62,741 bases of DNA from Muribaculaceae bacterium Zag1 (lineage in GTDB: Bacteria > Bacteroidota > Bacteroidia > Bacteroidales > Muribaculaceae), in the NCBI GenBank assembly GCA_002633115.1, contig NWBJ01000094.1:1-62741 (forward strand), in the 5' to 3' direction. Position numbers and translations under genes: made by a program. Below are positions 848 to 8,089 of the stretch, one piece after another. Position 1 is the stretch's first letter. Every line of letters starts with the position of its first letter. Below the pieces are notes generated by a model, which was given only the letters and a program-made list of their open reading frames with translations, made no database searches and was not told the DNA's origin.

Positions 848-1756
848 CTAATCGGACTGGGAGGCGAGTGGTTCGGAGAGGCGCTGGACGAGGGTGGTGC
901 CGGGAGGGACGGAGTGGGTGACCCAGAGGTTGCCGCCGATTGTGGAGCCTCGGCCGATGGTGATGCGGCCAAGGATGGTCGAATTGCTATAGACAATCAC
1001 ATCGTCTTCGATGATGGGATGGCGGGGGATACCCTTGATGGGGTTGCCATCTGCATCGAGCGGAAAACTCTTGGCTCCGAGCGTCACGCCCTGATATAGC
1101 TTTACATTATTGCCAATGATGCAAGTTTCGCCAATCACCACGCCGGTGCCATGGTCGATTGAAAAATGATGGCCAATCTGGGCTCCGGGATGGATGTCGA
1201 TGCCCGTCTCACTATGGGCCAATTCGGTGATGATGCGAGGTATCAATGGCACTCCCAGGTTGAGCAGCACGTGGGCTATGCGCTGGTTGAAGACAGCGCG
1301 AATCGTGGGGTAGCAGCTGATGATTTCACCGACATGCTTAGCCGCAGGGTCGCCATTGTAGGTAGCCTCGACATCGGTGGCAAGGATTTCTCGCAGACGG
1401 GGCAAAGACTGCACAAATTGCTCAGCCTTCTCTACAGCCGTCTTCTCGCGCTCTTCGGCTGAGAGATTGTCACACTCGTGGGTTTCGTCCTCGAGAAAGC
1501 ACAGGCCCGCTTGAATTTGGTCAGTGGCAATGCGGCACACTTGCTCTACACTCACCCCTATGTGATAGCGCAGAAAGGAAGAATGAGTCGCCACCTCGCC
1601 ATAGTAGCCGGGGAAGATGATTGAGCGGCATAGCTCAATCATCTCCCTCAGCTTGGGGGCCGAGGGCATCGGCTCGCCATCGCTGTGGCAGTGGAATAGA
1701 TGGCGATAGGGGGCTATCGCCGATAGTTGGTCGATAGTTGAGGTCAGGCGGTCCAT
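848..1756 (-). CDS. cysE: Serine O-acetyltransferase (CysE/EpsC type)
   Basis: Acetylates L-serine with acetyl-CoA to O-acetylserine, the first committed step of cysteine synthesis, in the cytoplasm. The 302-residue protein has a long helical N-terminal region and then the left-handed beta-helix signature with hexapeptide repeats: GIDIHPGAQIGHHFSIDHG, GVVIGE, IIGNNVKLYQGVTLGAKSFP, followed by HPIIEDDVIVYSNSTILG. The catalytic His lies in SIDHGTGVVIGE. The length fits the longer EpsC-like form common in Bacteroidetes. It starts 3 bases after the tyrA stop and is the last gene of the aromatic operon, so it is probably cotranscribed. That is notable because the leader peptide upstream of pheA contains a Cys-Cys pair. 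Confidence 0.93.
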   Translation of the reverse strand: MDRLTSTIDQLSAIAPYRHLFHCHSDGEPMPSAPKLREMIELCRSIIFPGYYGEVATHSSFLRYHIGVSVEQVCRIATDQIQAGLCFLEDETHECDNLSAEEREKTAVEKAEQFVQSLPRLREILATDVEATYNGDPAAKHVGEIISCYPTIRAVFNQRIAHVLLNLGVPLIPRIITELAHSETGIDIHPGAQIGHHFSIDHGTGVVIGETCIIGNNVKLYQGVTLGAKSFPLDADGNPIKGIPRHPIIEDDVIVYSNSTILGRITIGRGSTIGGNLWVTHSVPPGTTLVQRLSEPLASQSD

Positions 1757-1759
1757 CTT

Positions 1760-2533
1760 TTATTTTAGATTGGCGCGCACCTCGCTCAGGTAGGCTTTCA
1801 TGGCCTTGCAGTCGCGAGCCTCGACAATCTCTTTCAGTCGCTGCATCTGCTCGATAATGCGGGATAGCTGCTTGGGAGAATTGGGGTTGAAGAGAATCTC
1901 GCTCACCAGATAGTCATCCTCGCCCATCAGGCCTTGGGCGATGGCCATGTGGCGCTTGAAGGTGGTGCCGGGAGCGTCTTGGTGCTTCATCACTGAGGCG
2001 AAAGCGAGAGTCGAGGCAAAGGGGATTGAGAGCGAGTAGGCGATGGTCTCGTCATGTTTCTCAAAGCTGTATTCCTCGATGTGGAGGCCGAGGCGATTGT
2101 ATAGGTCGCGGAAGAATATGCGGCCTAGGTGGTCGCCCTCGGTGATGATGACAGCATTCTCGTTGGCCAAGTTGCTGAGTGAGGCGAATGTGGGACCAAA
2201 CATCGGGTGGGACGATGCGAAGGGATGGCCGCACTGGGCGTAGAATTCCGGCAGTCCGGTCTTGACCGATGCTATATCGCTGATGATGCAGGTCTTGGGC
2301 AGGTAGGGGAGTACCGACTCAAAGGCCTGGAGGGTGTATTTTACTGTAGCGGCATTGATGAGCAGCTGAGGCTCAAAAGCCTTGATTTCGTCGAGCGAAG
2401 TGAATCGCTGGCAGTTGAATGTGAATTTGAGGCGTTCGGGCTTGACATCGTAGACTGCGACCTCATGCTCAGATGAGAGCACATCGCAGAAAAACGATCC
2501 CATTTTCCCCGCCCCGAGTATCAATATCTTCAT
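1760..2533 (-). CDS. tyrA: Prephenate dehydrogenase
   Basis: Oxidative decarboxylation of prephenate to 4-hydroxyphenylpyruvate with NAD(P)+, the tyrosine branch. The N-terminus MKILILGAGKMGSFFCDVL carries the Rossmann GxGxxG. HPMFGPTFASL (residues near 95) is the conserved substrate-binding His-Pro-Met-Phe-Gly segment. The C-terminal half is helical, as in the dimerisation domain. At 257 residues it is a short monofunctional form without ACT or chorismate mutase domain; the mutase is fused to DAHP synthase at 3009-4088. It lies between the four-helix-bundle gene and cysE. Confidence 0.92.
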   Translation of the reverse strand: MKILILGAGKMGSFFCDVLSSEHEVAVYDVKPERLKFTFNCQRFTSLDEIKAFEPQLLINAATVKYTLQAFESVLPYLPKTCIISDIASVKTGLPEFYAQCGHPFASSHPMFGPTFASLSNLANENAVIITEGDHLGRIFFRDLYNRLGLHIEEYSFEKHDETIAYSLSIPFASTLAFASVMKHQDAPGTTFKRHMAIAQGLMGEDDYLVSEILFNPNSPKQLSRIIEQMQRLKEIVEARDCKAMKAYLSEVRANLK

Positions 2534-2541
2534 GTCGTAAA

Positions 2542-3008
2542 GGATAAACTATAAGTGATAAGTGATAAGGTAGGCTAACGCAACGTAACTTATCAGGTAC
2601 ACATTATTTTTTATCAGAATTTATTTTTCTTTTCACTGTTTTTATAGAAGCGGTAAGGAGTTTTTGTATCTCTACGGCATCTCCATATATGCTTTCAAAA
2701 GCTTTTTCATCAGTTATGAATTCACCTTCATATAATAGTTCTAACCAATATATGGTTTCGTTAGACTCTTTTTGTGAGATAGCTAATTTATGGATGAAAT
2801 CACCATCTGATTCTGCGAAATAAGCTTCTGCAATACAAGCTCCTATGCTAGTGCCGCTTCTTAGTATTTGTTTAGAAATTACGGTTTCATGTAACTCGTT
2901 TTTGAGATATTTATAGAGTTTTATGATTCTTAATGCAAATGCTTTACTTTTAGTTCTTAGTATACTTTGTCTCATCACACGTTATCACTTATCCTTTATA
3001 GTTTATCC
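2542..3008. mobile_element. Inverted-repeat-bounded cassette carrying a four-helix-bundle gene
   Basis: The stretch between aroG/CM and tyrA is bounded by two 27-bp arms, 2542-2568 and the reverse complement of 2982-3008, which agree at 25 of 27 positions (GGATAAACTATAA... and GATAAGTGATAA). The right arm touches the aroG/CM stop codon and the left arm lies 8 bases upstream of tyrA. The content is clearly more AT-rich than the flanking operon genes. No transposase is encoded. Similar words occur at 30381-30413, so the arms may also belong to the iterated-word class of intergenic repeats in this genome. Calling it mobile is inference. Confidence 0.45.
2604..2978 (-). CDS. Four-helix-bundle protein (IVP/23S rRNA-associated family)
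   Basis: A 124-residue, almost wholly helical protein of the family first met as ORFs in intervening sequences of bacterial 23S rRNA genes (S23/IVP) and common in Bacteroidetes. Family features seen are ALRIIKLYKYL, SKQILRSGTSIGACIAEA (the conserved R-S-x-x-S-I-x-x-x-I-x-E helix) and KLAISQKESNETIYWLELL. The biochemical role is not known. It sits inside the aromatic operon in the same direction and is flanked by inverted repeats, which suggests a cassette that arrived later than the operon. An alternative start at the second Met (2975) is equally possible. Confidence 0.85.
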   Translation of the reverse strand: MMRQSILRTKSKAFALRIIKLYKYLKNELHETVISKQILRSGTSIGACIAEAYFAESDGDFIHKLAISQKESNETIYWLELLYEGEFITDEKAFESIYGDAVEIQKLLTASIKTVKRKINSDKK

Positions 3009-4088
3009 CTATCGGAGGCGGTCATTGAAGACCTCGATTTGCTGACGGACAGACTCTTCGTGGATGGCTGAGAAGACAGAGCGCATGAATTCGCCACTCA
3101 TCTCCATCTCTTGCGCTTGCTTTACGCGCGAATTGATGATATCATCATAGCGCTGAGCCTGGAGGATGGGCATGCGATGCTCCTTTTTGTATTGGCCGAT
3201 GTCGCGCGACACTTGCATACGCTTGGCCAGAATCTCTACGAGATCATTATCGAGGCGGTCGATTTCCTGGCGCAAGAGGGTCAGATTCTCAGTGGTGGTA
3301 TTCTCTTGGCGCAACACCAGAGTATTGAGGATGAAGTTGAGAATCTCGGGCGTAACCTGTTGGCTCTTGTCACTCCATGCGCAGTCGGGATCGCAGTGGC
3401 TCTCGATAATCAGGCCGTCAAAACCCATGTCGAGTGCTTGCTGAGACAGGGGTGCAACCAGTTCGCGCTTTCCCCCGATATGGCTGGGGTCACAGATGAT
3501 GGGCAGGTTGGGGAGGCGACGGCGCAGCTCGATAGGTATGCGCCATTCGGGCATATTGCGGTACATGTGTTTGCCATAGGCGCTGAATCCTCGGTGTATG
3601 GCTCCGAGCTTGCGGACACCGGCATTGTAGATGCGCTGCAGGGCGCCAATCCACAGCTCCAGGTCGGGGTTGACAGGATTTTTCACGAGCACGGGCACAT
3701 CCTTGCCTGATTCCTTGATGGCGTCGGCAACCTCTTGCATGGCAAATGGGTTGGCCGAGGTGCGCGCGCCAATCCAGAGCAGGTCGACATCGGCATCGAG
3801 AGCCGCCTCGACGTGGGCGCGATTTGCCACCTCCGTGGCTGTGCGCATGCCAGTCTCCTCCTTCACGCGCTTGAGCCAGGGGAGGCCCTCTACGCCAATG
3901 CCCTCAAATCCACCGGGCTTGGTGCGCGGTTTCCAGATGCCGGCGCGGAATATCTTGATTCCGTTGTTGGCGAGTTCGCGTGCTGTGCCCAGCACTTGTT
4001 CTTCGGTCTCAGCGCTGCAAGGGCCAGCGATGATAATGGGCTTGTCGATAGCAATGCCCTCAAATGAGATGGGTTGGAGATCTTCCAT
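3009..4088 (-). CDS. aroG: Bifunctional DAHP synthase / chorismate mutase
   Basis: Condenses phosphoenolpyruvate with erythrose 4-phosphate to DAHP (first shikimate step) and converts chorismate to prephenate. From MEDLQPISFEG the protein is 359 residues. The N-terminal class I-beta (KDO8P synthase-like) barrel carries IIAGPCSAET, IWKPRTKPGGFEG, LLWIGARTSANPF, PVLVKNP, IHRGFSAYG and CDPSHIGGKR. The C-terminal AroQ-type mutase reads RQEIDRLDNDLVEILAKRM and GQYKKEHRMPIL. The frame is open up to 4184, but those 32 residues (MKNRAVGALPPG...) are not family-like and cover a hairpin, so I chose 4088. The fusion allows feedback control of the synthase through the mutase domain. Confidence 0.93.
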   Translation of the reverse strand: MEDLQPISFEGIAIDKPIIIAGPCSAETEEQVLGTARELANNGIKIFRAGIWKPRTKPGGFEGIGVEGLPWLKRVKEETGMRTATEVANRAHVEAALDADVDLLWIGARTSANPFAMQEVADAIKESGKDVPVLVKNPVNPDLELWIGALQRIYNAGVRKLGAIHRGFSAYGKHMYRNMPEWRIPIELRRRLPNLPIICDPSHIGGKRELVAPLSQQALDMGFDGLIIESHCDPDCAWSDKSQQVTPEILNFILNTLVLRQENTTTENLTLLRQEIDRLDNDLVEILAKRMQVSRDIGQYKKEHRMPILQAQRYDDIINSRVKQAQEMEMSGEFMRSVFSAIHEESVRQQIEVFNDRLR

Positions 4089-4194
4089 ATTATATCGGTA
4101 TTTTTGATTTATTAGATAGGAGCACACCGCGAAGCGGTGCGCCACAGAACCGGGAGGGAGAGCGCCCACGGCCCTATTTTTCATTCTTCATTTT
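4089..4194. repeat. Intergenic hairpin and CATTTTT word repeats
   Basis: Between the aminotransferase and aroG/CM genes lies a GC hairpin (CACCGC gaa GCGGTG, 4125-4139) and, at 4177-4208, tandem copies of TTCATTTTT that run into the 3' end of the aminotransferase gene. The same word fills 5446-5483. Confidence 0.5.
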
Positions 4195-5352
4195 TCATTT
4201 TTCATTTTTGATGCGGCGTAGGGCCTCGCGCAGCTTGTCGGGGGTGGCGCAGAGCGAGATGCGGATGTAGCGGTTGCCATTAGAGCCGAATATGAAGCCC
4301 GGGGTGATGAACACGCGCTTGTCATAGAGTACCTCATCGCACAGCTTCTCAGGACTCTCGGCCGATTCGGGTATGCGGCCCCATAGGAACATGCCCCGTT
4401 GCTTGGGGTCGAAGGTGCAGCCCAGAGCCTCCATTATCTGCTCGGCAATCACTCGGCGCTCGGCGTATGTGTCGTTGATTTGCTTGTACCAAGCATCATC
4501 AGCGCTGAGAGCCTTGACGGCTGCCTTCATCATGGGCTTGAACTGGCCAGAATCGACATTGCTCTTGACCTTGATAAACCATGACAAGAACTCAGGATTG
4601 GTAGCGATCATACCAATGCGCCAACCGGCCATGTTGTGGCTCTTGCTGAGCGAGTTGAGTTCGATTGCCACATCCTTTGCTCCAGGCACTTGCAACAGCG
4701 ACATTGGCTGCTCGTTGAGGATGAAACTATAAGGATTGTCATGCACAAGCACAATCTGATGACGTTTAGCAAACTCTACGGCGCGACGGAATGTCTCCAT
4801 CTGAGCCGGAGCCCCAGTAGGCATGTGGGGGTAGTTGAGCCACATCAGCTTGATGCGGTCGAGCGGCAAGCGCTCTAAAGCCTCGAAGTCGGGTTGCCAA
4901 TCATTCTCTGGCAACAGGTCATAAGGAAATATTTCAGCCTCGGCGAGTTTGGAAGCCGATGTGTAGGTCGGATATCCGGGATTTGGCACCAGCACTCCAT
5001 CGCCTGGGTTGAGGAAGGTAAGCGACACGTGCAGCACAGCCTCCTTTGAACCTATCAAGGGCTGGATTTCGGTGTCGGGATTCAGCTCTACGCCATAGCG
5101 CTCGCCATACCAGCGGGCAAAGGCTCGCCTGAGTTCGGGGAGTCCGGTGAAGGGCTGATAGGAATGGGCATCGGGCTGATGAGCCACCTCGCAGAGGGTC
5201 TCGATAACCTCATCGGCGGGCATGCGGTCAGGGCCACCAATGCCGAGCGACACGATGTCGCGTCCTTGGGCATTGAGAGCGGCTACTTCTTTGAGTTTCT
5301 TTGAGAAATAATATTCTTGTATCTGAGATACGCGATTAGCAGGAACTATCAT
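4195..5352 (-). CDS. PLP-dependent class I/II aminotransferase (aromatic operon)
   Basis: Fold-type I aminotransferase of 385 residues, most likely transaminating phenylpyruvate and 4-hydroxyphenylpyruvate, judged by its place between pheA and aroG/CM. Visible features are SLGIGGPDRMPADEV, YQPFTGLPELRRAFARWY, the cofactor-binding GSKEAVLHVSLTFL and PNPGYPTYTSAS, VLVHDNPYSF (Asp to the pyridine nitrogen) and the Schiff-base Lys in ELNSLSKSHNMAGWRIGM. The C-terminus has NGNRYIRISLC with the carboxylate-binding Arg. It resembles LL-diaminopimelate/aspartate-type enzymes in sequence style, so the exact substrate is inferred from the operon. Confidence 0.88.
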   Translation of the reverse strand: MIVPANRVSQIQEYYFSKKLKEVAALNAQGRDIVSLGIGGPDRMPADEVIETLCEVAHQPDAHSYQPFTGLPELRRAFARWYGERYGVELNPDTEIQPLIGSKEAVLHVSLTFLNPGDGVLVPNPGYPTYTSASKLAEAEIFPYDLLPENDWQPDFEALERLPLDRIKLMWLNYPHMPTGAPAQMETFRRAVEFAKRHQIVLVHDNPYSFILNEQPMSLLQVPGAKDVAIELNSLSKSHNMAGWRIGMIATNPEFLSWFIKVKSNVDSGQFKPMMKAAVKALSADDAWYKQINDTYAERRVIAEQIMEALGCTFDPKQRGMFLWGRIPESAESPEKLCDEVLYDKRVFITPGFIFGSNGNRYIRISLCATPDKLREALRRIKNEK

Positions 5353-5483: not shown

Positions 5484-6332
5484 TTATCCCCGGGGGGTTG
5501 GGCACTCGACATATTGGCCCAGGTCTTTGAAATCGTTAATTAGGGGGCGGATGGCATCGATGGCTTGGTGATAACGCACTATCGAATCAAAGGTGATGTC
5601 GACGTAGAAGCGGTATTCCCACTCGCGCCCGATGATTGGTATAGATTGGATCTTGGATAGATTCAAGTCGTAGAATGACAGGATTGACAGCACCTTGGAG
5701 AGCGCGCCCTTGGTGTGAGGCAGAGTGAAGGCTATTGAGGCTTTGTTGATTTGTCCCTCCTTGGGCCCTATCTCTGTGGCAAGCAGCGGGTCGGCGAGGA
5801 TTAGGAAGCGGGTGAAGTTGCGCTTGTTGGTCTCAATGCCTTTCTCCAAGATATTCAGTCCGTAGAGATTGGCTGCAAATTCTCCGCACACTGCCGCATG
5901 GCCCATCATGTTTTTCTCGGCTATCTCTGCCGCAGCCCCGGCGGTGTCAAATTTCTCAATCATCTTGAGATTGGGATGGCGGCGCAGGTATTGCTCGCAT
6001 TGCATCAGGGCGATGGGGTGGGAGTTGGCCTCGGTGAGTTCGTCGATGGTCTGGCCGCGCAGAGCGCACAGCACGTGCGAGATGCGCATCTTGTGTTCGC
6101 CGATAATGCGGAGGCTGCTTTGGCGCAGCAGTTCATGGTTCTGGAGGATGCTGCCGGCGATGGTATTCTCGATGGCAACGATGCCAAGCAGCGAAGCGTC
6201 GGTGCTGAGCGTGTCGAACATGTCGTTGAAAGTCTCGCACGGAATCGTCTCGATTTCCTCGCCGGGGAAGAACTGCTGAGCAGCAGCATCGTGGAAGCAT
6301 CCCTTTATGCCTTGGATAGTAATGCGGAGCAT
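5484..6332 (-). CDS. pheA: Prephenate dehydratase
   Basis: Converts prephenate to phenylpyruvate, the committed step to phenylalanine. The 282-residue monofunctional enzyme has a catalytic PDT domain (residues about 3-180, with GIVAIENTIAGSI, SHVLCALRGQ, SHPIALMQCEQYL, FDTAGAAAEIAEKN, NFTRFLIL) followed by an ACT regulatory domain (HTKGALSKVLSILSFYDLNLSKIQSIPI...YRFYVDI). The ACT ESRP-like motif is replaced by KIQSIPI. It is the first gene of the operon. Its 5' leader of about 310 bases contains the attenuator at 6501-6632 and a long GTCAAAA repeat, so expression is probably set both by attenuation and by ACT-mediated phenylalanine feedback. Confidence 0.94.
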   Translation of the reverse strand: MLRITIQGIKGCFHDAAAQQFFPGEEIETIPCETFNDMFDTLSTDASLLGIVAIENTIAGSILQNHELLRQSSLRIIGEHKMRISHVLCALRGQTIDELTEANSHPIALMQCEQYLRRHPNLKMIEKFDTAGAAAEIAEKNMMGHAAVCGEFAANLYGLNILEKGIETNKRNFTRFLILADPLLATEIGPKEGQINKASIAFTLPHTKGALSKVLSILSFYDLNLSKIQSIPIIGREWEYRFYVDITFDSIVRYHQAIDAIRPLINDFKDLGQYVECPTPRG

Positions 6333-6337
6333 ATTAA

Positions 6338-6488
6338 GTCAAAAGTTATAAGTCAAAAGTCAAAAGTACTTTATAAGTCAAAAGCCAAAAGTACTTTATA
6401 AGTCAAAAGTCAAAAGTCAAAAGTCAAAAGTCAAAAGTCAAAAGTCAAAAGTTATAAGTCAAAAGTACTTTATAAGTCAAAAGTCTTT
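6338..6488. repeat. Tandem AGTCAAAA repeat between attenuator and pheA
   Basis: About 150 bases are almost entirely iterated AGTCAAAA units, including an uninterrupted run of 7-8 units around 6399-6450, interspersed with copies of AAAAGTACTTTATAAGTC (the 10-mer AAAGTACTTT is self-complementary). It lies in the transcribed leader downstream of the terminator and upstream of the pheA start. Confidence 0.75.
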
Positions 6489-6504
6489 GAGTGGGCCAAT
6501 AAAA

Positions 6505-6534
6505 AATCCCGCTCTTGGGTACAGGAGCGGGATT
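6505..6534 (-). terminator. Attenuator terminator hairpin of the aromatic operon
   Basis: On the minus strand AATCCCGCTC (6534-6525) pairs perfectly with GAGCGGGATT (6514-6505) across a 10-base loop and is followed by a run of six T (6501-6506 region). This is a strong intrinsic terminator placed about 75 bases after the leader peptide start and well before pheA. Its 5' arm can instead pair with 6573-6584. Confidence 0.85.
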
Positions 6535-6584
6535 ATATGGATATGGGCAAATCATAATCATAAGGCACACACAATCTCGCTCCT
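6523..6584 (-). promoter_or_regulatory. Candidate antiterminator of the aromatic operon leader
   Basis: The minus-strand segment AGGAGCGAGATT (6584-6573), inside the leader-peptide codons, is complementary to AATCCCGCTCCT (6534-6523) at 11 of 12 positions (one A-C mismatch). This pairing uses the 5' arm of the terminator and would prevent its formation. The two structures are therefore mutually exclusive, as in classical amino acid attenuators. The leader stop codon (6558-6560) lies in the loop between the two arms. Confidence 0.75.
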
Positions 6585-6632
6585 ATCGCAGCAATAGAAG
6601 TAATAGAACGAGTATGAGTAAAATCGTGTCAT
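6558..6632 (-). CDS. Leader peptide rich in Phe, Tyr and Cys (attenuator)
   Basis: A 24-codon frame starts at ATG 6632 and ends with TGA at 6558. Residues 4-13 read FYSYSFYYFY, giving 3 Phe and 5 Tyr in ten residues, followed at once by Cys-Cys; a third Cys stands near the end. The start lies about 14 bases from the predicted transcription start, and no other purpose for such a composition is evident. The downstream operon makes Phe and Tyr and ends with cysE. A ribosome stalled on the aromatic or Cys codons would leave 6573-6584 free to form the antiterminator. A ribosome reaching the stop would cover that arm and allow termination. The peptide is assigned from composition and position only. 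Confidence 0.85.
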   Translation of the reverse strand: MTRFYSYSFYYFYCCDRSEIVCAL

Positions 6633-6652
6633 ATTGTCATTGATTTTGGTCG

Positions 6653-6683
6653 CAAAATTACAAATTATTTTTCAACTACCAAA
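6653..6683 (-). promoter_or_regulatory. Promoter of the aromatic operon
   Basis: TTTG (6683-6680) and TAATTTTG (6660-6653) on the minus strand are separated by 19 bases, matching the Bacteroidetes primary sigma consensus. Transcription would start near 6646. Confidence 0.75.
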
Positions 6684-6713: not shown

Positions 6714-8089
6714 TCAGAACAGGAAATTTATGCCGAAATTGACGTTGGCACGGCTTGTCAGAGGCACATACTGCTTAGAAAATTTGGTAGGCACGTCATC
6801 AGCTGCCACAAACAGGTTGAAGCCTGGGCAGTGGAGATTGAGTATGCCGCCAAAGCCAGTGCCATAAGTGCCGGTGTGCACATTGACTGCCAGGTCCACT
6901 ACCTTGCAAGGAATCAGATTGGCCGACAGACGGAAGTCAGTCCAAGTAAATTCGCCAGCGATGTAGGTGGTATTGAGCAGACCAAACTTCAGTCCCTTGT
7001 AGTAGGGGAAGTTATAGAGGGCGCCGATGTTGAGGGTAGCGCCAAGCATTGAGGTCTGGCTGCCTTGGTCGCCCAGGTCGTCGAGCTCGTAGAGAGCTGA
7101 GATGTCGTCCTTGATGCGGTCCCACTCGTTGTCGAAGCTGTTGCTGGCGTTGTCGTCAACGTTGAACACATACTGGTTGACATTGAAAGTCTTGGTGCCT
7201 TGAGTCGAGGCCAACATCTGGTTTTTCCAGTTGATGAAACCGAAGTCGAGGAGAGCTACTGAGAATTCAAAGTCCTTCAGCACGGGGATATCCATCTGAG
7301 GCTTCCAAGTAGCGCCGAGGTCGATAGCAGCGCCGATGCCGCTGATGCCGTCCCAGTCATAGTCGGCACCATTGACGTATTGGTGGCCAGTGTTGTCATT
7401 GACATCGAGGTCGTAGGTGAAACCTTTCATGTTGACATACATCTCGCCGCGCGAACGGATAGCCCAGTCGTCGGTGCCGAGAGCCAGGTCAGCCTCCTCG
7501 AGGTTGAGGCGAGCATTGCCAGCGCCGACCAGTCCCTTGAGGGTAGCGCCCACGCGCAAGCCCGGCATGATTTCGCGCGAGTGGTTGAGGGCAACCTCAG
7601 CAAATGCGGTAGCGCGAGCCTTGAAGTTGGCGATATGATAGGCACGCCCTCTTTGAGGAACGAGAAAATTGAGCTGGGGAGTTTCACGCCCACATCGGTG
7701 CGAGCGCTGATCGAGATGGTGTTGTATCCGCCAATGCCCTTGAAGCCCACGGCGAGGATAGTCTCGCGCAGATTCACGGCAAAGCGCTTGTCATTGCCAA
7801 GATTTTTCATGGCCTCGGCAGTGCTGACGTCGGGGTGCATAAATGTCACGGTCTTGCCATTGACATTGTACAGTACGTCCTGCACGCCCAGGTTGCCCGA
7901 GATGCCTACGTTGAGGTTGCCCAGAGCCGGCATAGACACGAATCCACGGCTATTGCCAAAGGCGGGGTTCATCTGGAAGCGGTAGGTGTAATCATCGAGG
8001 AAGTAACCCGCTTCGGTATTTTGCGCTGTCGCACTCAGAGCAGTTGCAATAGCTCCAGCCGCCAGCATTGATTTTATATTGAGTTTCAT
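6714..8089 (-). pseudogene. DUF5723-like outer-membrane protein, broken by one frameshift
   Basis: Reads as one protein of 458 residues if a single missing base is restored near 7643-7652, and as two frames otherwise (7427-8089 and 6714-7568). The N-terminal part has a signal peptide (MKLNIKSMLAAGAIATALSA) and ends in sense at IFSFLKEG. The second frame resumes with YHIANFKARATAFAEVALNHS, the usual continuation in Bacteroidales DUF5723 proteins. The last residues NFGINFLF end in Phe, as expected of an outer-membrane beta-barrel. The change is a -1 shift next to GGGCG on the coding strand. Everything else looks intact, so this may be an assembly indel or a very recent mutation. The gene follows the lipoprotein gene at 8143-9891 by 53 bases and is probably cotranscribed with it. 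Confidence 0.75.

Follow-up and report, generated by a model that had tools for sequence, protein, structure and literature searches.

Introduction

In Escherichia coli, pheA is preceded by an aromatic leader peptide and by competing antiterminator and terminator helices, and this peptide, PheL, is rich in phenylalanine only. We take the Rfam family Phe_leader (RF01859) to represent this attenuator. Bacteroidetes rarely use Shine-Dalgarno (SD) sites, and translation in this group is thought to start mostly without SD pairing.

In Flavobacterium psychrophilum, the available portions of one report describe a structured 5' element upstream of pheA, which is also present in other Flavobacteriaceae and matches no Rfam family, as well as signs that operons for amino acids are preceded by leader peptide attenuators (PMC9723704). 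The Bacteroid-trp RNA (RF01692) is given as a Bacteroidetes candidate structured RNA in the accessible part of its source (PMC2864571). The accessible text on the Bacteroides thetaiotaomicron transcriptome mentions small ORFs in 5' UTRs that are reminiscent of attenuating leaders and does not name phenylalanine (PMC7366714). Tandem attenuators, with two short ORFs before one operon, are described for Salmonella mgtCBR in the available part of PMC3641672. The available text of PMC9723704, PMC7366714, PMC2864571 and PMC4833913 holds no description of this pheA element in Bacteroidales; our coverage leaves out most subscription literature, and an earlier description is possible.

Here, we analyzed a leader in a 62,741-nucleotide stretch of DNA from Muribaculaceae bacterium Zag1 (contig NWBJ01000094.1; hereafter the window, from genome G000). 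A preliminary description had proposed a ribosome-mediated Phe/Tyr attenuator ahead of pheA. Conservation, locus-specific complementarity, spacing and predicted folds support this proposal. With a probability of roughly 0.92, the element is a ribosome-mediated transcription attenuator for the operon pheA - aminotransferase - DAHP synthase/chorismate mutase - tyrA, with charged tRNA-Phe and tRNA-Tyr as the sensed molecules.

Results

The leader comprises the following parts:

6680..6683, minus strand: -33-like promoter element TTTG, read from the sequence
6653..6660, minus strand: -7-like promoter element TAATTTTG (TAnnTTTG type), 19 nt after TTTG
6558..6632, minus strand: leader ORF MTRFYSYSFYYFYCCDRSEIVCAL, 24 codons, ATG at 6632-6630 and TGA at 6560-6558, without an SD-like tetramer
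6594..6623, minus strand: putative sensor codons 4-13, FYSYSFYYFY, 8 aromatic residues of 10
6588..6593, minus strand: Cys-Cys codons 14-15, for which a sensor role is not supported
6616..6629, minus strand: region 1, with pairing partner 6582-6569 inside region 2
6568..6586, minus strand: region 2, the antiterminator 5' arm, with core 6573-6584
6521..6539, minus strand: region 3, partner of region 2 (antiterminator) or, as 6525-6534, of region 4
6505..6514, minus strand: region 4, the terminator 3' arm, 10 perfect pairs with 6534-6525
6501..6506, minus strand: terminator T-run, read from the sequence

The promoter-like boxes, the 24-codon leader, its run of eight aromatic residues in ten, the Cys-Cys pair and the stop are all present as first described. 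The same holds for the perfect 10-bp terminator with its U-run and for the 11-of-12 antiterminator that shares the terminator 5' arm, both of which go beyond shuffled sequence. Folded alone, the terminator reaches -17.6 kcal/mol (z -6.2) and the antiterminator -22.6 kcal/mol (z -5.0), and in neither case was any of 200 shuffles equally good. The antiterminator core pairs AGGAGCGAGATT at 6584-6573 with 6534-6523 (11/12 match); with G-U pairs counted, it grows into a 19-nt duplex of 6586-6568 and 6539-6521 that has a single mismatch. A weaker region 1:2 helix, absent from the preliminary description, can also form in this leader. The window's peptide alone is a moderate surprise only, because 8 of 5000 dinucleotide shuffles of its own upstream stretch contain a small ORF with at least 8 Phe/Tyr in ten residues; conservation decides. 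A DUF5723 gene lies upstream of the leader and ends at 6714.

Downstream of the leader lie the following genes, identified by HMM search, and one further ORF:

5484..6332, minus strand: pheA, prephenate dehydratase (PDT match; ACT match below cut-off)
4195..5352, minus strand: class I/II aminotransferase (best NCBIfam match LL-DAP aminotransferase, below cut-off)
3009..4184, minus strand: DAHP synthase - chorismate mutase fusion
2604-2978, minus strand: four-helix-bundle/23S-IVP ORF inside the operon, between DAHP synthase/chorismate mutase and tyrA
1760..2533, minus strand: tyrA-like prephenate dehydrogenase
848..1756, minus strand: cysE-like serine O-acetyltransferase, adjoining the operon only here and in genome G006 among the loci read

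The operon had been said to make Phe and Tyr and to end with cysE. Its HMM content fits Phe and Tyr synthesis with a cysE-like gene last; among the loci read, an adjoining cysE is confined to G000 and G006. The best NCBIfam matches of the five operon genes fall below curated cut-offs, save that of the cysE-like gene, which is narrowly above the cut-off for EpsC serine O-acetyltransferase. Of 17 other operon loci, 15 yielded an aminotransferase relative, 16 the DAHP synthase/chorismate mutase and 11 tyrA, and the genes follow the same order as in the window. The 23S-rRNA-intervening-sequence/four-helix-bundle ORF was not found in these 17 loci, G006 included.

Between the terminator and pheA, positions 6336-6485 of the minus strand carry a heptamer array, (TTTTGAC)n with inserts TTATAAAGTAC. 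A three-unit heptamer pattern has 128 exact, partly overlapping matches genome-wide (90 forward, 38 reverse; reversed control 0). The array is shorter in G006, where the leader lies 195 nt from pheA, compared with 300 nt in the window. Judging from their sequence, three TACTTTTG boxes in the array resemble -7 elements and might be promoters that bypass the attenuator.

Conservation of the leader and terminator was assessed in two samples. In the first, pheA was found in 47 of 99 relatives, and 46 loci were readable, the remaining one, L042, being truncated where its contig ends. A leader with at least five F/Y in ten residues precedes pheA in 43 of these 46 and was not seen in L016, L023 and L027. 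A pheA of this type was not found in the other 52 relatives, many of which are of the same genus and nearly complete; these may be Phe auxotrophs or use a different enzyme. The class-wide sample contained pheA in 65 of 247 genomes, including the window's, and provided 63 further loci, the fragment G121 being left out.

When a strict unit is defined as a leader plus a terminator score of at least 30, 80 of the 109 loci in the two samples together carry one, and 34 of the 44 families have at least one such locus. The 29 loci that miss this definition include all eight of family f54 and every locus of nine other families. Some misses reflect a weak terminator score only, for example f91, where serial units were overlooked by the score, and five of the eight misses in f1, the window's family, which we take as Muribaculaceae. 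Another 65 distinct upstream stretches came from named genomes; the strict definition is reached by 29 of these and a loose one by 44. Six of the failing stretches (L157, L164, L170, L171, L179, L185) contain the end of a conserved reading frame 20-77 nt upstream of pheA, and another, L158, is truncated at a contig end. One of the named genomes, Duncaniella muris DSM 103720 (L139), has the leader MKRFYAYSYFYYFYFDKK and a terminator.

At least six Phe/Tyr in ten residues occur in 127 of 172 distinct upstream stretches; among shuffled stretches the count is 79 of 3440, and among reverse complements 4 of 172. The exact leader pattern occurs once each in 14 of 99 genomes, always directly before pheA (reversed control, 0). 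Thirteen extra class loci from a phylum search, kept outside the counts, all have a leader with at least seven F/Y/W in ten. Among the strict units, 107 of 109 leaders contain both F and Y, and 22 of 109 contain Trp. Many Muribaculaceae leaders start MTRF[YS][AS]Y; outside the family the aromatic richness is kept and the sequence is not. The comparison of related pheA upstream regions proposed in the preliminary description reveals conserved aromatic-rich leaders and, as detailed below, competing helices that fit each other locus by locus. The element was placed in Bacteroidales; it is indeed present there, but its range was understated, since it extends across the class Bacteroidia.

For tests of the helices, 175 distinct upstream stretches were available; 131 have a leader and some terminator, and the 109 with a terminator score of at least 30 served as strict units. 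Setting a terminator cut-off and selecting the best duplex both favor an attenuator model, and we therefore used swap and position tests. In 98 distinct leaders, region 2:3 pairing scores 22.6 with the locus's own region 3 and 16.3 with region 3 of other loci (Wilcoxon P 7.9e-18, kinship ignored), and the own pairing is in the best quarter for 87 of 98. Region 1:2 pairing is weaker and still locus-specific (18.1 compared with 15.3, P 8.2e-11; best quarter, 55 of 98). Because both fits are locus-specific, the layout 1:2, 2:3, 3:4 is like that of the trp attenuator. At changed region-3 positions, 168 of 180 keep both pairings, a count of little weight because the duplex was selected for complementarity.

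To locate region 2, we looked for the best arm between the leader ATG and a point 12 nt short of the terminator. In every one of the 109 strict units, it begins 8-20 nt past the first nucleotide of the last aromatic codon, a position reached in 176 of 545 shuffles of the segment behind the aromatic run; relative to the first nucleotide of the stop codon, it lies at -31 to +8. An earlier scan with a slightly wider region 3 placed the best arm within the aromatic run in L036 and L094. We assumed that the ribosome's front footprint extends 12 nt from the A-site codon. With this footprint, a ribosome waiting at the last aromatic codon would leave most of region 2 free, and one waiting at the stop codon would cover its start. 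The modeled geometry is thus one in which the antiterminator is free at a sensor stall and covered at the stop.

Folding of the nascent RNA with a stalled ribosome predicts the antiterminator in 108 of 109 units. With the ribosome at the stop codon, the terminator is predicted in 109 of 109, a result that is partly built in, as the masked part is left out. At this stage, before region 4 is made, 90 of 109 units show no upstream pairing of region 3 of at least 5 bases. The predicted antiterminator fraction is 0.98-1.00 through the last aromatic codon (0.99 there), 0.70 two codons on and 0.40 three codons on. In the window at equilibrium, stalls on codons 4-13 favor the antiterminator, except at codon 5, and from codon 14 the terminator wins; the stalled unit prefers the antiterminator at a 12-nt footprint and not at 15 nt. 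For full-length RNA at equilibrium, the stalled state still favors the terminator in 84 of 109 units. Timing must therefore decide in most units, because these prefer the terminator once region 4 is complete. An untranslated leader gives the nascent antiterminator in 85 of 109 units and the final terminator in 103 of 109, which counts against a clear basal behavior.

Promoter-like boxes accompany the leaders. Of 108 units, 86 have an exact TAnnTTTG no more than 70 nt from the leader ATG, compared with 5 of 108 shuffled, and in 48 of 85 a TTTG precedes the -7 box by 15-27 nt, compared with 6 of 85 shuffled; the latter count supersedes a looser TTG count (80 of 86) made without a control. The median distance from the end of TAnnTTTG to the ATG is 21.5 nt. 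If transcription starts about 6 nt after the -7 box, the 5' leader would be roughly 15 nt long. The remark that SD sites are missing fits what we see, as none of 108 leaders has an SD-like tetramer at -20 to -4. This comparison has little contrast, because shuffles of the same A-rich stretch reach only 3 of 108.

Some loci carry two aromatic leaders and two terminators in series before pheA. Six were found, L040, L061 and L106 by automatic scan and L047, L088 and L103 by eye. The region-2 shuffle P is at most 0.02 in nine of the 12 units and 0.073 in one more, and both units of five of the six loci have a plausible region 2. Both units of L103 fail the region-2 test (P 0.71 and 0.35), partly because the terminator finder handles long loops badly.

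Candidate leaders also precede other amino-acid operons. In a survey of 41 relatives without a shuffle control, an ORF with at least four His in ten residues lies within about 500 nt upstream of hisG in 11 of 12 loci; a His-rich match far from hisG in L233 was not counted. The hisG leader of the window genome, MSNNSHLHHHHHYHPTT, is followed by a terminator (L226 1028-1082, G000:C70). The same heptamer array as before pheA lies between this His-leader terminator and hisG (G000:C70:50877-50962). For the trpE family, likewise without a shuffle control, 12 loci were found and nine scanned; in five (L237, L239, L240, L241, L242), a leader with WWW is found no more than about 400 nt away. By eye, L225 (His-rich, hisG) and L239 (Trp-rich, trpE) each show two leaders and two terminators. 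A simple region-2 test revealed no significant antiterminator in five His/Trp units (two of L225, two of L239, one of L226; shuffle P 0.21 to 0.80).

Bacteroid-trp RF01692 matched 3 of 61 relatives, two of them above the cut-off, and had no match in the window genome in covariance-model searches with strict filters. In genome G069, a WWW leader ORF (L236 68-116) lies inside an RF01692 match, which fits a leader-peptide nature of the Bacteroid-trp family.

Beyond the class, pheA was found in 172 of 198 genomes of a phylum sample, 127 of these outside Bacteroidia. We read 23 of the 127 loci: three came with the search, and for the other 20 we picked one or two from each family. Only four have the leader (L248, L252, L265, L286); a weaker aromatic ORF 400 nt off in L275 was not counted. 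These four have the highest pheA scores among genomes of other classes, that is, the most Bacteroidia-like ones. From these scores, it is possible that pheA and attenuator were transferred together to other classes, which would be the simplest reading.

Discussion

Upstream of pheA in the window lie a short leader ORF, in which codons for the products of the operon form a run, and an antiterminator that shares the terminator 5' arm and is mutually exclusive with the terminator. Sequence and folding predict an intrinsic terminator between the leader and the first gene. Support for a Phe/Tyr mechanism is about as strong as sequence can give.

We propose the following model. Transcription would begin some 15 nt upstream of the leader ATG, and ribosome loading on the leader would proceed without an SD site. 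When Phe or Tyr is short, the ribosome would stall on codons 4 to 13, with its front edge just before region 2; region 2 could then pair with region 3 once this is made, and RNA polymerase would read through. When Phe and Tyr are plentiful, the ribosome would reach the stop codon and cover region 2, and the 3:4 terminator would form and stop transcription before pheA. In an untranslated leader, region 1:2 and the terminator could form. The transcription start, ribosome stalling, the efficiency of termination and the amino acids that act in vivo are inferred in this model.

The preliminary description also suggested that the Cys-Cys pair adds a cysteine response that ties cysE to the Phe/Tyr switch. 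Cys-Cys and an adjoining cysE do co-occur in G000 and G006, but these loci (L001 and L002) are the only two of 109 units in which Cys-Cys follows the aromatic run, and with pheA 98% identical they represent one lineage; any Cys within four codons past the run occurs in 9 of 109. Among the 17 operon loci, cysE adjoins the operon only in G006 (L200 ends just after tyrA), and 19 other genomes that have pheA together with a strong cysE match carry the two genes on separate contigs (18) or at a distance of about 142 kb (G082). A ribosome whose A site holds Cys14 or Cys15 would mask part of the antiterminator, and folding prefers the terminator at the assumed 12-nt footprint, whereas at 9-11 nt a Cys14 stall would still favor the antiterminator. 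Conservation, linkage and stall folding therefore speak against a cysteine tie, and we consider it improbable; it is disfavored and not more than that, because a 9-11 nt footprint would let Cys14 work. Considered as a Cys-responsive attenuator in its own right, the element lacks conserved, suitably placed Cys codons, the placement of Cys14 serving only at the 9-11 nt footprint.

Alternatively, the leader might be a nascent-chain arrest peptide, sensed as a chain and not through its codons. The MTRF[YS][AS]Y start of many Muribaculaceae leaders, which includes non-aromatic residues, would suit such a peptide. This conserved start overlaps RNA region 1, however, and outside the family the aromatic richness persists while the peptide sequence does not, which leaves this explanation very unlikely. 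Least probable of all, in our view, is a plain terminator of the upstream gene, or one controlled by a protein or ligand, with an incidental small ORF. In its favor is the upstream DUF5723 gene, which ends at 6714. Against it, promoter-like boxes that recur in relatives separate this gene from the leader; moreover, leader, region 2 and terminator are conserved as a set whose members fit one another. Furthermore, no Rfam family, riboswitches and T-box included, matches the window or 20 chosen loci at the gathering cut-off; at E up to 10, the window has 12 Rfam matches, all far below cut-off and Phe_leader not among them.

Ribosome-mediated transcription attenuation of the pheA operon in response to Phe and Tyr may be one case of a wider system. 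We think it fairly likely that Bacteroidia have a general and largely uncatalogued set of SD-free ribosome-mediated attenuators, with Phe/Tyr leaders before pheA and His- and Trp-rich leaders before hisG and trpE, and that in some lineages two of these are stacked serially before one operon. Ribosomes would then bind a 5' leader only about 15 nt long, unaided by SD pairing, and yet keep pace with RNA polymerase, and the pheA element would travel with its gene to other classes.

For a group that is dominant in the gut and in the environment, the element would be a clear-cut and widespread Phe/Tyr switch, and it would form a new RNA family for annotation. Since attenuation needs a ribosome that loads fast and remains close to RNA polymerase, the element could naturally report on SD-free initiation and on how transcription and translation are coupled in Bacteroidota. 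The effect of stacking attenuators could be tested with the serial duplicates.

Compared with E. coli pheA, the element has the same layout of an aromatic leader and competing helices before pheA; it differs in its mixture of Phe and Tyr, in an operon for the synthesis of both, in the absence of SD-like tetramers and in having no Rfam match at the gathering score. Regions 1:2, 2:3 and 3:4 are common to the E. coli trp attenuator (Trp_leader, RF00513), whereas the sensed codons differ, and the window scores 17.8 against this family's cut-off of 41. Bacteroid-trp RF01692 is likewise from Bacteroidetes and stands before another operon. For the Flavobacterium psychrophilum pheA element, the available portions of the report give no leader sequence, helix or spread past Flavobacteriaceae (PMC9723704). 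The serial loci resemble Salmonella mgtCBR in having two short ORFs before one operon, as far as the accessible part of that source goes (PMC3641672); that part does not describe the two as similar amino-acid units in series. Taken together, the mechanism is classical, and its unusual sides are the serial duplicates and the absent SD sites.
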